DNA of 21,318 nt from a virus. The stretch spans positions 1-21,318 of IMG/VR virus record IMGVR_UViG_3300009790_000098; one strand, written 5' to 3'. The notes beneath the pieces were generated by a model that did not search any database, had not been told where the DNA came from, and saw nothing but the letters and a program-made list of their open reading frames with translations. The position numbers and the translations under genes were made by a program. Each line of letters starts with the position of its first letter. The stretch's first letter is position 1. This document shows positions 10,712 to 21,318 of the stretch, one piece after another.

Positions 10712-11161
10712 ATGAGTTATAAAGGTAAATTTAAACCTAAAAATGGATATAAGTATTTAGGTAACCCAACTAATATTATTTATCGTTCCTTATGGGAGTG
10801 CAAGCTAATGATTTATTTAGATTCTCATCCGGATGTTATATCATGGGCATCAGAAGAGGTGATAATACCTTATAGAAGTCCTATTGATGGACGTAATCAT
10901 CGATATTTTCCAGACTTTTACGTAAAGAGAAAAATTAATGGGAAAATTAAAGAAACTATTATAGAAGTTAAACCTTCTGAGTATTGTAAACCACCTAAAA
11001 TGTTAGCTACAGGGAAAAAACCAACTAAGAAATATATTACAGAGGTCAGGCGTTGGGGCATTAATGAAGCTAAGTGGAAAGCAGCAACAGAATATTGTAA
11101 AGACCGGGGATGGGACTTTAAATTAATGACCGAAAAGGATTTAGGTATAACATATGGGTAA
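10712..11161 (+). CDS. gp4: Head completion protein gp4, nuclease-like fold
   Basis: The 149 residues match T4-like gp4 (about 150), needed to complete filled heads before tail joining. The start YKGKFKPKNGYKYLGNPTN and IYRSLWE are family hallmarks. The protein has TnsA/PD-(D/E)xK-like residues: E29 in SLWE, P67-D68 in HRYFPDFYV, and E85-V-K87 in IIEVKP. The core of a nuclease site therefore looks intact, although DNA cleavage is inferred and not established here. There is no clear ribosome site before the ATG, which lies 6 bases after a late-type box. The end overlaps the desaturase start by 8 bases. It is the first gene of the rightward operon. Confidence 0.86.
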   Translation: MSYKGKFKPKNGYKYLGNPTNIIYRSLWECKLMIYLDSHPDVISWASEEVIIPYRSPIDGRNHRYFPDFYVKRKINGKIKETIIEVKPSEYCKPPKMLATGKKPTKKYITEVRRWGINEAKWKAATEYCKDRGWDFKLMTEKDLGITYG

Positions 11162-11930
11162 GCGATTTCATAGTGCACTATTAATTAGATCTGTAAGATT
11201 TCTATGCCTTATTGGTTTAATACCTACATGCTTATTATTATCTAACGAATCAAATACTACAATCGCTATAGCTGTATTGTTAACTCTTATAATAGCTAAA
11301 GGCGGGCAACATATAGCACAGCATAGATATTTTTCTCATAGAAGCTTTGAGACAGGACCAAAAAGAGAATGGTTCTTAGGTTTAATCGCCACACTAAGCA
11401 CGACAGGATCTCCTATACATTATTCAGCTATGCATAGAACTCATCACAAACATTCTGATACTAAAGACGATCCACAAGCACCTCATCATGTAGGTTTCTT
11501 TAATGCATTCTTTGCTAATTTAGATTTTAATAAGATAGCTAAGAGCAGCATAATAAGAGATTTAATGCGCTCAAAACCTGCGATATTTTTCCATAATTAT
11601 TATTGGCATACCATTATAGTGTATTGCATCATACTTGCGCTTATATCGCCTGTATGGCTGTTATATGGCTATGTTTTACCGGTAGGTATAAGTAATATAA
11701 TGTCCGGATTATTAAATACAATTGTACATCAGTTTGGCTATCAAACTAGATCTACAAACGATATAAGTTATAACAATCATATAGCGCATATATTAACATT
11801 GGGTGAAGGCATGCATAACAATCATCATCATAAACCTAGCGCATACAATACTAATATAGATAACAAATGGTATGAGTGGGATCCTATGGCAATTATAATA
11901 GAAAAACTTTTTAAGGTACAAAATGGCTAA
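11154..11930 (+). CDS. Membrane fatty-acid desaturase, acyl-lipid/acyl-CoA type
   Basis: This di-iron desaturase would introduce a double bond into an acyl chain in the membrane using O2 and an electron donor that is not encoded nearby. All three histidine boxes are present: H57RYFSH62 (HX4H), H94RTHH98 (HXXHH) and H221NNHH225 (HXXHH, in the typical GEGMHNNHH context). Hydrophobic spans lie at ~15-50, ~75-90 and ~150-195, and the length of 258 is on the short side for the Delta9 group. It overlaps gp4 and the next gene by 8 bases each, so it is fully built into the late structural operon. That placement suggests late expression. It is an auxiliary metabolic gene, probably acquired from a bacterial host. 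Substrate and regiospecificity cannot be read from sequence. Confidence 0.9.
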   Translation: MGKRFHSALLIRSVRFLCLIGLIPTCLLLSNESNTTIAIAVLLTLIIAKGGQHIAQHRYFSHRSFETGPKREWFLGLIATLSTTGSPIHYSAMHRTHHKHSDTKDDPQAPHHVGFFNAFFANLDFNKIAKSSIIRDLMRSKPAIFFHNYYWHTIIVYCIILALISPVWLLYGYVLPVGISNIMSGLLNTIVHQFGYQTRSTNDISYNNHIAHILTLGEGMHNNHHHKPSAYNTNIDNKWYEWDPMAIIIEKLFKVQNG

Positions 11931-17345: not shown

Positions 17346-18254
17346 TTACTGGTCAGCAGCTAATTTTTTGAAGAATGATAATGTTTCATCATCTTCAGTA
17401 CTATCTTCTGCAGATGCTGTTGGTTCTTCAACCGTTGCAGCTGATGGGATAGTAGCTTGCTGAGCTGCTACTGTATTAGTAGGTGCAGCATAAGACTCTG
17501 TAGGACTTCCTGCATCAAGAGCTAGAACTCTATACAGTTTAGTCTTCAACTCATCATATGATTTAAAGTTGCTTGGATCGGTAAACTCTGAAAGTTTATA
17601 CTGACTATTCCAAACGGCTTCAAGCTTTTCATCATCATCTAAGAGAGCCGTAGTTGCATCGAACTCAGACTTATCATAATTCCTGTAACCTTCAACGTTT
17701 CTGATTTTTAACTTAAAGTTAGCACCAGTCCATAGATCAAATGGGTTTACAGGAGTTTCATCTTGAAAAGATGGATTCATAAGATCATTCAATTTCTCAA
17801 ATATCTTTTTACCATACTTATACAAGAATACTTTACCTTCGTTATCAGGATTACTAGGATCACTGACAACGTAGATGTTAGAATAAAAACTAAGACGTCT
17901 TTTGTACTTACGTACTAAGTCTTTGTTTGATTCAACACCTGAATTCCAAAGCATATTATTATACTCTGAAATAGGACATTTTTGTCCAAGTGTTGTTAGG
18001 GATTTCTCAATGAACCATTGTCCAGTAGGACCTTGGAATCCATGATCCCAAACTCTTACAAATGGTACATCTTCACCATCGGAAGCAGGCAAGAATCTAA
18101 TAACGGCATAACCATTACCAGCTTTATCTACTTCGGGTTTCCAGAAACGGTCATCAGGACCTCTTTTCTGTGTAGGAGAATTAAGTTTCTCCATTGCGGA
18201 TGTGAGTTTATTGAGCTCGTCACTCGAGCTTTTCTTCATATTAGAAAACGACAT
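17346..18254 (-). CDS. gp32: Single-stranded DNA-binding protein gp32
   Basis: The 302 residues match T4 gp32 (301), the replisome and recombination ssDNA-binding protein. The N-terminal LAST-type motif (MKKSSSDELNK) is needed for cooperative binding. The OB-fold core follows (NGYAVIRFLPAS, VWDHGFQGPTGQWFIEKS, YVVSDPSNPDNEGKVFLYKYGKKIFEKL), then an acidic C-terminus (~275-302) for partner binding. T4 uses H64, C77, C87 and C90 for zinc. Here only H71 and C93 remain in aligned positions; the positions of C77 and C90 hold other residues, so zinc is probably lost. AAGGAG precedes the ATG. It is the last gene of the cluster, 3' of gp59 as in T4, and has its own candidate promoter. Confidence 0.94.
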   Translation of the reverse strand: MSFSNMKKSSSDELNKLTSAMEKLNSPTQKRGPDDRFWKPEVDKAGNGYAVIRFLPASDGEDVPFVRVWDHGFQGPTGQWFIEKSLTTLGQKCPISEYNNMLWNSGVESNKDLVRKYKRRLSFYSNIYVVSDPSNPDNEGKVFLYKYGKKIFEKLNDLMNPSFQDETPVNPFDLWTGANFKLKIRNVEGYRNYDKSEFDATTALLDDDEKLEAVWNSQYKLSEFTDPSNFKSYDELKTKLYRVLALDAGSPTESYAAPTNTVAAQQATIPSAATVEEPTASAEDSTEDDETLSFFKKLAADQ

Positions 18255-18277: not shown

Positions 18278-18305
18278 ATTATACGATGTATTACGTTTTA
18301 TTCAC
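18278..18305 (-). promoter_or_regulatory. Candidate gp32 promoter
   Basis: The minus strand has a perfect TATAAT at 18283-18278, 23 bases before the gp32 start, in the 47-base gap after gp59. A -35 element is poor (GTGAAT with a 16-base spacer, partly in the gp59 end). It could be a weak sigma70 or an activated middle-type promoter giving extra gp32. Confidence 0.45.
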
Positions 18306-18877
18306 TTATTAAAATAATCTAATGTTATAGACTTATATTTATCAGTATTGATACTGAGAAACGGTCTATAATTAATAATTATACCATATTGTTCTTGCCA
18401 AAGCAAGTCATTTTTCAATTCTTTTTGCCAATGTTGAAAATAACCGACTAGCATGTCTAGTATAATCATTGTTTCGATGCAAATATCTTTACGTAGAAAT
18501 AATCTAAATAAAGTTGGATGACCAAACTTAGGCACCTCAAAATTGCTATCAAAATCTTCTTCTAGTTTACTGAGATCATCTTTAAATCTATATGTAAGAC
18601 TTTCTTGTCTCTTTTTCCAACTCATGTAAACGTCATCGGGCTGCGAAGCATTTATATTCCCGACATAGAAATCTTTACCACCTTCTACAAACTGAGCTAA
18701 TAGATAATTCTCAATATCTTTTTTCTTAGCCAACTTCATAAAAAAGTATTTGTCTCTTCTTGTCTCATATGAAGTTTCATTAACTTTCACTTTACCATTA
18801 TACTTATGATAATCATAGCTAGTGGTAAAATGATTCTTTAATGCTATATACTTTTGATATACTTCAAATGGACTCAT
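18302..18877 (-). CDS. gp59: Helicase loader gp59
   Basis: gp59 loads the gp41 helicase onto gp32-coated DNA. The match to T4 gp59 (217 residues) is clear: VYQKYIALKNHFTTSYDYHK, and RRDKYFFMKLAKK against RRDKYFFQKLSEK in T4, plus a C-terminal LLWQEQYGI region. I choose the start at 18877 (MSPFEVY, 191 residues) because the homology begins there and a longer start at 18925 would overlap the oxygenase by 62 bases. The chosen start still overlaps it by 14 bases. A GAGGGG site lies 13 bases upstream, a little far. The order gp33, gp59, gp32 is that of T4. Confidence 0.9.
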   Translation of the reverse strand: MSPFEVYQKYIALKNHFTTSYDYHKYNGKVKVNETSYETRRDKYFFMKLAKKKDIENYLLAQFVEGGKDFYVGNINASQPDDVYMSWKKRQESLTYRFKDDLSKLEEDFDSNFEVPKFGHPTLFRLFLRKDICIETMIILDMLVGYFQHWQKELKNDLLWQEQYGIIINYRPFLSINTDKYKSITLDYFNK

Positions 18878-19529
18878 AATGTTTATTGATCCCCTCAGGG
18901 AATAAGTCTGTATGTTCTGATTCATTCACTTCCTCTTTCCATTCTATAAATTTGTCTCTATGCACTAACCAAATAATTAATGCTTCTCTTGTTCCTTTAG
19001 TGACAGGCTCGACACCATGATATGTGTCTGAATCAAAAATAACCATATCACCTCTATCTAAATCTACTGGTGTTTTTTTACCATCACCAACATCAAGAAT
19101 AAATTGTCCACCTTCATATTCTTCTCTATCATTTAATCCGACAGATATAGACATCTCTCTTTGTGGTGCTATATTCTTTAGATAATCTTTTTCAGGATCA
19201 TCACTACGACCCATATAATAATTTAATCGATCTATATGCCAATCAAATTTACCACCTTGATAATCATGATACGTCTGAACTGACCATGGTTCTAAAAACT
19301 CATAACCACTATCATAATCTTTAGTATCCATAACTGCATCATGAACTTTATCTAAAAGTTCTATTGGCAAATCTCTGTAAGGATCAAATACTTTTGCTTC
19401 AGCTATTCTGCTAGTATCATATGACGCTGCTTGTCCTTTTGATATAGCGGCTTGCTGAATATATTCTCTTGGTTGTTCAAATAGTATTAGATCTTGATCA
19501 CTGAAATAATTTCGAAATAGTTTGTGCAT
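18864..19529 (-). CDS. 2-oxoglutarate/Fe(II)-dependent dioxygenase (PiuC/P4H type)
   Basis: The 221 residues have the double-stranded beta-helix core of the Fe(II)/2OG family. The metal triad is H98-x-D100 (DWHIDRLN) and H171 (TYHGVEP), and R181 (TREALIIWL) should bind 2-oxoglutarate. Upstream strands LEPWSVQTYHDYQGGKF and QREMSISVGLND...YEGGQF are typical of prolyl-hydroxylase-like proteins. These genes are common in marine T4-like phages and their substrates are unknown. It is inserted between gp33 and gp59, 6 bases after gp33, overlapping gp59. No ribosome site is visible, so translation is probably coupled to gp33. Confidence 0.9.
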   Translation of the reverse strand: MHKLFRNYFSDQDLILFEQPREYIQQAAISKGQAASYDTSRIAEAKVFDPYRDLPIELLDKVHDAVMDTKDYDSGYEFLEPWSVQTYHDYQGGKFDWHIDRLNYYMGRSDDPEKDYLKNIAPQREMSISVGLNDREEYEGGQFILDVGDGKKTPVDLDRGDMVIFDSDTYHGVEPVTKGTREALIIWLVHRDKFIEWKEEVNESEHTDLFPEGINKHYESI

Positions 19530-19535
19530 ACATTA

Positions 19536-19799
19536 TCATATAGGTAATTTTCTTGAACTACCTGCTTTAAGTAGTAACTTACCTTCACTCTCAGCTGCTA
19601 ATTTAGCTTTAAGAGTATGTGAATTTTTTACTAATGATCCAATGGTCTCAACTTCGACACCATTTTCTTCGGCATAAATCATTAGCGCTTCTAAATAATC
19701 ACAATTTAATTGTTGTACCCTCTTTTCTATTAGCGCAGAAAATTCTTTAACAGATAAAATATTATCTGATAAATCGGTAGCGGGTACTTTCTTAGCCAA
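19536..19799 (-). CDS. gp33: Late-transcription co-activator gp33
   Basis: gp33 bridges host RNA polymerase and the sliding clamp at late promoters. The 87 residues (T4: 112) match in ALIEKRVQQLNCDYLEALMIYAEENGVEVETI, compared with IIEKMVEEFGMSYLEATTAFLEENSIPETQ in T4. The C-terminus ends SRKLPI and lacks the hydrophobic DFLL-like end that T4 gp33 uses for the clamp, so that contact may differ. The start is TTG: only ACC and GAG separate it from an in-frame TAA (19806-19808), and the next Met is residue 40. AGAG lies 4 bases upstream. It overlaps the lysozyme end by 8 bases. Confidence 0.82.
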   Translation of the reverse strand: MAKKVPATDLSDNILSVKEFSALIEKRVQQLNCDYLEALMIYAEENGVEVETIGSLVKNSHTLKAKLAAESEGKLLLKAGSSRKLPI

Positions 19800-20241
19800 G
19801 GTCTCTTATTCGCTGTTCTAGTCTTTTGGAACGATTGCCGACTTGACCGTACCACCTAGAATCAACCATTTGATCTGCAGCTTCATTAAAATCATCCATC
19901 TGTAATGCTGTAATGAAATTACGAAACTTTGAGAGTCTTGTTCGACCCATATTAAACATCATATTAATAAGTACTTCTTGTACTTCATCATGATAGTCAC
20001 TAAATTCTTCACCGAATAATTCTAAACACTCTTCTACATGATGTTCAAAGTCTTCATCAAATTGTTCGTCAACCCTTTCTGATGGAATCTTTGCGCCTAC
20101 TGGCATTCCATATTCTGGGTCGCTTTCTTTAATTAGATGACCAATTCCAAAAGTAGGTAATCCGAGACTATCTAAATAAACCTCTTCAACTCTTCCTTCA
20201 TCTATCTCTAATTGTTTTCTAACTTGTTCTCTATTATACAT
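19792..20241 (-). CDS. Endolysin, T4 lysozyme family
   Basis: This muramidase would cleave peptidoglycan at lysis. It has no signal peptide, so it needs a holin. The T4 lysozyme catalytic set is present with the same spacing: E15, D24 and T30 (T4 E11, D20, T26) in LEIDEG, VYLDSLGLPTFGIGH. The C-terminal NRSKRLEQRIRDL matches the NRAKR end of T4. Length is 149 against 164. I choose the start at 20241 (MYNREQVRK): GGGAG lies 6 bases upstream, and a sigma70-type promoter at 20266-20294 starts transcription after the alternative ATG at 20289. It is the first gene of the gp33-oxygenase-gp59-gp32 cluster. Confidence 0.92.
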   Translation of the reverse strand: MYNREQVRKQLEIDEGRVEEVYLDSLGLPTFGIGHLIKESDPEYGMPVGAKIPSERVDEQFDEDFEHHVEECLELFGEEFSDYHDEVQEVLINMMFNMGRTRLSKFRNFITALQMDDFNEAADQMVDSRWYGQVGNRSKRLEQRIRDLG

Positions 20242-20253
20242 TCTTTTCTCCCG

Positions 20254-20284
20254 ATGTACTATATTATTATATAGAAAAGTACAT
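20254..20284. promoter_or_regulatory. Imperfect inverted repeat over the -10 element, possible operator
   Basis: Outer arms ATGTAC (20254-20259) and GTACAT (20279-20284) flank inner arms CTATAT (20259-20264) and ATATAG (20269-20274); the right side has a few extra bases. The dyad covers the -10 and start region, as a repressor site would. The AT-rich inner part could arise by chance. Confidence 0.35.
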
Positions 20285-20294
20285 CTCATGTCAA
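20266..20294 (-). promoter_or_regulatory. Perfect sigma70-type promoter for the lysozyme-gp33 cluster
   Basis: On the minus strand, TTGACA (20294-20289) and TATAAT (20271-20266) both match consensus exactly, with an ideal 17-base spacer. The -35 contains the cyclase TGA stop. Transcription would start near 20259, leaving an ~18-base leader with the GGGAG ribosome site. This is a host-polymerase-type (early) signal. Confidence 0.88.
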
Positions 20295-21318
20295 CCTATT
20301 TTTGTAGGACTATATATTCTTATCTCTTCTTCTTTACCTTTAACCTTTATTGTACCAATTTCAGTATTCAAATATCCTTCAGGTAATTGTTCCATAGTAG
20401 CTCTTGAATAAATGGTTTTATGATCCAAGTATTCTCCTCTACCTGCAGTTGCTTCTAACCTAGCGGCAAGGTTGACTGCATCTCCAATAACCGAATAGTC
20501 AAATCTGGATTCACTACCCATGTTACCAACAATACAAGTCCCGGTGTTAACACCAGTGCCAACATTAATGTCAGGCAAATTACGGCTTTTGTAGATTCCT
20601 TTAAGCTCATTTATTTCTTCCTCAATTTCAATTGCAGATTTAATAGCCATCTCTGCGTGGTTCTCACACTCTAATGGTGCGTTCCAAAATGCCATGATAC
20701 AGTCGCCCATATATTTGTCGATTGTACCACCATTCTTTAAAATAATATTAGTCATTCTATTTAAGAACTCATTTACTAATTCTACTAGTCCTTCTGGATC
20801 GTCATTATTTTTATAATGCTCTGATATGGGAGTGAACCCGCATATGTCCATAAAAAGGAAAGTCATCTCTCTTCTTTCACCACCTAACTTTAATAACTCT
20901 GGATTCTTCTGTAACAAGGCTACTTGTCTTGGATCCAAATAAGTTTCAAACTGTTTCTTTATTTGTTGTCTTAATTTAAAGTTAGTATAGAACTGGACAA
21001 ATGAAGCATGACTAAATACTAATACTAAGGATATTATAATCCAAGTAGGATCAAAAAGCAAGTATGAAGAAAAGAAGATTTGCCAAGAAGCTACAGCGAC
21101 GCCGCCAATCAGCAAGACGGATACAATTCCAGAACTCAAAACGTTCGCCCATCTCACTAGAGCGAGAATCAGAAGACCGAGAATTAGAAGAATGGTTAGC
21201 TCAGCAAAAGGAAAATAATCCGGACGCTTAATAGTAGTACCATCAATTAATGTCTTTAATAGATTAGCTTGAACTTCGTGAGGATACATTTTGCCTAATG
21301 GCGTGGTAATTAATTGAC
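20291..21318 (-). CDS. Membrane-bound class III adenylate cyclase, CHASE2-type, N-terminus off the right edge
   Basis: The enzyme would make cAMP from ATP. Numbering from the internal Met at 21289: three membrane spans (~29-47, 52-69, 82-100), a linker (RQQIKKQFETYLDP, NPELLKLGGERRE), and a full cyclase domain. The residues needed are present: metal-binding D148 (FMDICGFT) and D196 (DKYMGD), adenine-selecting K192, S266 where bacterial enzymes usually have Thr or Asp, and N273 and R277 (VNLAARLE). The frame continues without a stop to the window end, adding QLITTPLGK before MYPHEVQANLLKTLIDG, which fits the end of a CHASE2 sensor domain. The Met at 21289 is thus internal. All catalytic residues are intact. 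Nucleotide choice (cAMP, cGMP or pyrimidine) is inferred. Confidence 0.9.
   Translation of the reverse strand, partial: QLITTPLGKMYPHEVQANLLKTLIDGTTIKRPDYFPFAELTILLILGLLILALVRWANVLSSGIVSVLLIGGVAVASWQIFFSSYLLFDPTWIIISLVLVFSHASFVQFYTNFKLRQQIKKQFETYLDPRQVALLQKNPELLKLGGERREMTFLFMDICGFTPISEHYKNNDDPEGLVELVNEFLNRMTNIILKNGGTIDKYMGDCIMAFWNAPLECENHAEMAIKSAIEIEEEINELKGIYKSRNLPDINVGTGVNTGTCIVGNMGSESRFDYSVIGDAVNLAARLEATAGRGEYLDHKTIYSRATMEQLPEGYLNTEIGTIKVKGKEEEIRIYSPTKIG

Follow-up and report, generated by a model that had tools for sequence, protein, structure and literature searches.

The closest described counterparts of the gene analyzed here are the cyclases of marine phage curli cassettes. The curli operon was reported in PMC7029224, and in 2022 FecR and an adenylate cyclase were described as parts of the type VIII secretion (curli) module that pelagiphages, both myo- and podoviruses, carry, together with an alphaproteobacterial origin of the module, its transfer between viral families, the expression of its viral genes in ocean metatranscriptomes, and the statement that bacterial curli operons are without FecR and cyclase (PMC9599517). 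The term 'CHASE' has no matches in that paper, where the CHASE2 sensor goes unnamed. In the cultured Pelagibacter phage HTVC008M (KC465899; protein AGE60353.1, annotated 'adenylate/guanylyl cyclase') and the methylophage Melnitz (QZI95054.1; discussed in PMC9004378, which also holds an idea linking curli to lysis), the cyclase closes a CsgF-CsgG-curlin-FecR-curlin cassette. Two puzzles surround this gene: it is always found together with FecR and an exporter of surface fibres, and the streamlined hosts are mostly without a recognisable cyclase or CRP, yet their viruses keep an active-looking cAMP sensor.

The window, the whole stretch of 21,318 nucleotides that was analyzed (G000), is an entire IMG/VR record, IMGVR_UViG_3300009790_000098, and a cyclase frame on its minus strand runs open through the window edge, as the earlier note had observed, and so through the end of the record. 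A second IMG/VR record, L002 (8,663 bp), shares 6,610 nt with the window, apart from a single mismatch (window position = 23372 - L002 position) and contains the complete gene (L002:1249-3081), which encodes 610 amino acids with CHASE2 and class III cyclase domains. The features around the edge are as follows.

17346 to 18254, minus strand: gp32 single-strand DNA-binding protein (PF08804, E 6.5e-45)
18302 to 18925, minus strand: gp59 helicase loader (PF08993/PF08994, phrog_269)
19536 to 19799, minus strand: gp33-like late-transcription coactivator (PF16805, E 8.3e-15)
19792 to 20289, minus strand: phage lysozyme (PF00959, E 3.8e-9)
20266 to 20294, minus strand: perfect sigma-70-like promoter, TTGACA-17-TATAAT, equivalent to L002 3078-3106 and overlapping the 3' end of the cyclase
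20291 to 21316, minus strand: receptor adenylyl cyclase, C-terminal 341 amino acids (residues 270-610; phrog_35576 at 438 bits, PF00211, L002 overlap)
20324 to 20869, minus strand: class III cyclase catalytic domain (PF00211, about 72.4-74.1 bits, E 4.5e-20; catalytic residues conserved)
20945 to 21211, minus strand: three transmembrane helices, residues 304-392 (hydropathy and AlphaFold; positions converted from residue numbers)
21212 to 21318, minus strand: final part of the extracytoplasmic CHASE2 domain, the remainder lying beyond the window (PF05226 in the full protein)

The earlier note had proposed extending the sequence rightward to look for CHASE2, and had named a stop or frameshift just past the edge as counting against its reading; in the gene as extended by L002, no stop, frameshift or misassembly was found. 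Upstream of the cyclase, L002 contains a curlin-repeat-like gene (L002:533-1249), identified by similarity to phage curlins and without matches in a Pfam search, and the C-terminus of a FecR protein (L002:2-322), identified by similarity to the FecR ORFs of relatives. The gene order in the window's virus is FecR C-terminus, curlin, cyclase, and L002 stops within FecR, which leaves this virus's CsgG and CsgF out of view. This cassette escaped the earlier note because it lies beyond the window edge. Tblastn recovered orthologues that carry cyclase annotations, one in HTVC008M that is 57% identical across the part inside the window and those of the Melnitz phages at 33%, and PMC9599517 describes the cyclase in its module; since the gene is an already known feature of marine phages and not new, the surprise that the earlier note expressed at meeting it in a T4-like phage falls away. 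Compared with phage records by megablast, the window as a whole had no matches, and an Rfam search of it likewise gave none.

The full protein has CHASE2 (PF05226) at residues 11-321 (E 6.9e-37), which bears out the suggestion that the end of such a sensor lies at the edge, and hydropathy places hydrophobic spans at residues 305-323, 328-346 and 360-378, in agreement both with the three membrane spans noticed before the cyclase and with an AlphaFold model (pLDDT 87) that places an N-terminal helix ahead of CHASE2 (about 41-300), long helices (304-392) and the cyclase (416-606). The nearest solved enzymes to the modelled cyclase domain are CyaB and CyaC (TM-score 0.88 by target length and E 1.5e-16 against P. 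aeruginosa CyaB, PDB 3r5g). The window's virus, HTVC008M and Melnitz each have CHASE2 and Guanylate_cyc (PF00211, curated cut-off 21.9 bits) scoring above the Pfam cut-offs. The catalytic set, which consists of two metal aspartates, lysine and aspartate purine selectors, and asparagine and arginine transition-state residues, is D426, K470, D474, D548, N551 and R555; the earlier note had correctly named D148, K192, D196, N273 and R277, which are the same residues numbered 278 lower, and had left D548 unlisted. Of the 76 viral proteins in the first family, 74 keep this DKDDNR pattern, as do all 72 proteins of a second viral family, although the conservation of K470 and D474 is partly due to selection, since the peptide patterns by which relatives were fetched include both of them but not D426, D548, N551 or R555. 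One of the two exceptions has an ambiguous base, and the other is the Melnitz cyclase (L083:5167-7218), where serine replaces the transition-state asparagine and activity may therefore be altered. Mean identity among the viral proteins is 44% in CHASE2 and 74% in the cyclase part, and the faster divergence of CHASE2 would suit a sensor adapted to a partner that itself varies. The lysine and aspartate purine selectors predict ATP as substrate and not pyrimidines, and the protein is best supported as an intact CHASE2-type class III cyclase, putatively of adenylyl type, in a T4-like phage.

The phage is called T4-like because the window contains gp32; baseplate wedge subunits, tail tube, DNA end protector, gp33 and gp59 are further T4-type genes present, and the lysozyme and replication genes that the earlier note placed beside the cyclase are there. 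A 2OG-Fe(II) oxygenase is also among the neighbours. The window further encodes a fatty acid desaturase (11154-11930), in a phage that also has a curli-linked cyclase; in PMC7029224, desaturase is listed as special to freshwater fonsimyophages, which are without curli.

At least 597 IMG/VR loci encode relatives of the cyclase. Linkage was assessed in the best 80 of these viral relatives together with HTVC008M and Melnitz: FecR and CsgG lie upstream in all 38 sampled loci with at least 4 kb of upstream sequence, and the full set including CsgF in 37, the single remaining locus being cut by its contig end. Most cassettes also have, before csgF, a pair of 83-100 aa proteins (for example, L085:3255-3835, L088:7724-8256 and L082:3104-3666), each with one hydrophobic segment and a charged tail, for which Pfam gave no significant match. 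They may correspond to the published 'histidine kinase', for which they are too short. A podophage-like contig with a terminase and a curli cassette with cyclase also occurs inside a SAR11-type genome bin (L201, G648:C1).

The second viral family was reached from L088, a contig that had been binned into a Rickettsiales MAG and whose cyclase has 302 viral relatives. Where 1 kb or more of upstream sequence is available (31 loci), exporter genes are always present: type I secretion in 24 and curli in eight, with one having both. The type I set contains a TolC-like protein (TIGR01844, 1.7e-34), a short HlyD (TIGR01843, 3.9e-47) and an LssB-like permease fragment of about 250 aa without the ATPase part, all three matching below the NCBIfam curated cut-offs, as well as a large adhesin with cadherin or RTX repeats. 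A FecR domain is found near the N-terminus of every complete adhesin ORF (seven loci, two of them identical). Because the second family adjoins a type I set whose adhesin has its own FecR domain, the combination of FecR with a CHASE2 cyclase is, judging by gene content, one that accompanies two unrelated fibre exporters, and this is new. In the tree, the type I secretion-linked cyclases form one clade with a separate curli-linked lineage as its sister, so the exporter with which the cyclase is paired has changed at least once. Both IMG/VR and PHROG content mark these contigs as viral; since the T4 gp6 family was not found in the type I secretion phages, we do not assign them as T4-like. The TolC-like protein has no matches in a collection of 50,697 phage records, the type I secretion adhesin was not found in cultured phages, and a literature search on phage type I secretion adhesins and FecR-cyclase-adhesin links, with subscription journals mostly outside its coverage, returned nothing relevant. 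Cassettes of this kind, ending in the CHASE2 cyclase, are seen among L222-L301 (for example, L247:815-8926). In each of two loci (L224:1926-10536 and L287:3-7842) there are two CHASE2 cyclases, one of which lies next to an inverted curli set; the second cyclase of L224 comes after type I secretion genes.

FecR lies within 500 bp of a CHASE2 cyclase in eight of 76 bacterial loci, L087 among them, and in others the cyclase has a giant FecR-containing RTX protein at a distance of about 2 kb. At L087:3959-10016 and L200:4242-10262, the order CsgF-CsgG-curlin-curlin-FecR-cyclase is found between ordinary chromosomal genes of Caulobacteraceae type. The CsgG proteins of these two loci are nested inside the viral ones (support 97/97), as are their FecR proteins (95), and their cyclases are placed next to the viral curli clade (SH-aLRT 94, less clearly at 78 with the second family added). 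Transfer from phage to bacterium is likely and is the simplest reading of these trees, and an unsampled common donor is a possible alternative. That two Caulobacteraceae-type chromosomes have, by their gene order, a FecR/cyclase curli operon is new. Among the 20 curli loci fetched, nearly all of them alphaproteobacterial, 18 are without FecR and cyclase nearby, and one of the two that have both is a podophage contig.

The architecture, the conservation of catalytic residues and the strict linkage to FecR-domain proteins and fibre or adhesin export genes are established at the level of sequence. We propose, with moderate confidence, that the cyclase is a periplasmic receptor, the last gene of the curli cassette, that reads the status of FecR or fibre export into cAMP, whose receptor is probably not a classical CRP. 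By its architecture it is an inner-membrane protein: an N-terminal helix and a periplasmic CHASE2 domain are followed by three helices in the membrane and by a class III cyclase on the cytoplasmic side. CHASE2 may read the FecR-domain protein, or the export state that FecR reports, in the periplasm of the infected cell; the dimeric cyclase domains would then turn ATP into cAMP, which may tune fibre production or the timing of infection through a receptor that is probably other than classical CRP. Given the version with type I secretion, FecR-to-CHASE2 coupling, with nothing specific to curli, becomes the leading hypothesis, and independent systems are available for testing it. A broader statement seems to us about evenly balanced: that FecR and the CHASE2 cyclase form a portable periplasm-to-cytoplasm unit, used on unrelated phage exporters with a non-CRP receptor, and that at least one such operon was taken up by Caulobacteraceae-like bacteria.

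The earlier note had suggested instead that the phage raises cAMP to reprogram host transcription, which would presumably act through a host CRP-type regulator. The cyclase appears intact with ATP-type residues, and PMC9599517 cites the control of E. coli curli by CRP-cAMP, but no cNMP-binding domain was found in HTVC008M, Melnitz or seven large viral contigs, and only nine of 147 SAR11-type genomes have one (three as short CRP-like frames). These genomes were picked through a MAG named Candidatus Pelagibacter (G009), a name from which we infer their SAR11 identity, and may not be the host group of the window's phage. A class I cyclase is found in none of the 147 and a class III cyclase in three, at least two of which are phage cassettes. 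It is new that a CRP-type receptor gene appears to be missing from the phages and rare in SAR11-type genomes; because of this, the output path is missing and the idea of host reprogramming is weakened to the point where we think it unlikely.

Equally unlikely, in our judgement, is a role in lysis timing, in which the cyclase, holin-like small membrane proteins and lysozyme would link the state of the envelope to lysis; this extends the curli-lysis idea of PMC9004378. The lysozyme does come directly after the cyclase in the window, and one of the two one-helix proteins before csgF in most viral loci weakly matches a holin family. However, the perfect sigma-70 promoter, of a type with 56 exact occurrences in 735,258 bp of viral loci, stands between cyclase and lysozyme, upstream of a probable lysozyme start (an ATG preceded by GGGAG, at codon 17 in the ORF as listed), and likely marks a transcription boundary after the cyclase. 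Given this promoter and a start with a good ribosome site, the lysozyme and replication genes are probably a separate unit. In other viruses the lysozyme is elsewhere or not nearby, and cellular operons retain FecR and cyclase without lysis genes; as a general operon partner of the cyclase, the lysozyme was rejected.

Slightly less probable again is that the cyclase is no longer needed and is simply passed on with the cassette as a passenger. The lost asparagine in Melnitz and the lack of a known cAMP receptor would fit a passenger, whereas catalytic residues are otherwise kept despite the low CHASE2 identity, and linkage holds across two secretion systems. Interference with, or derivation from, cyclic-nucleotide defence such as Pycsar, also raised in the earlier note, is very improbable: a PycTM (Pycsar effector) gene directly follows the cyclase at L087 (10458-11051, E 8.8e-25), but it is absent from the sister locus L200, from all nine phage records and from all 147 SAR11-type genomes, and the predicted substrate is not a pyrimidine. 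Misassembled host DNA, a worry that the ORF's stopping at the record edge might feed, deserves practically no credence and is refuted by L002, which repeats the cyclase-lysozyme-gp33-gp59-gp32 junction, and relatives in viral contigs and cultured phages speak against it too.

Among known systems, the CHASE2 adenylyl cyclases of Alphaproteobacteria and SAR86 (L089-L163) have the same domain order and catalytic residues at 31-36% identity, but form a clade separate from the viral proteins. The catalytic domain of P. aeruginosa CyaB shares the cyclase fold at 35% identity, whereas its membrane sensor, MASE2, differs from that of the window's cyclase. A FecR-LysM and CHASE2 histidine kinase operon of Burkholderia and Pseudomonas (PMC5192318) likewise pairs FecR with CHASE2, in a biofilm setting, but it is bacterial, has a histidine kinase as output and is without a fibre exporter. 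The L087 and L200 operons are an exception to the statement in PMC9599517 about bacterial curli operons. The pelagiphage curli module shares with the window's virus an orthologous full-length protein, its position at the cassette end and a T4-like phage; its order is CsgF-CsgG-curlin-FecR-(curlin)-AC, where L002 has FecR C-terminus, curlin and AC. Compared with HTVC008M and Melnitz, the window's virus is a different lineage, in which lysozyme, gp33, gp59 and gp32 come after the cyclase.
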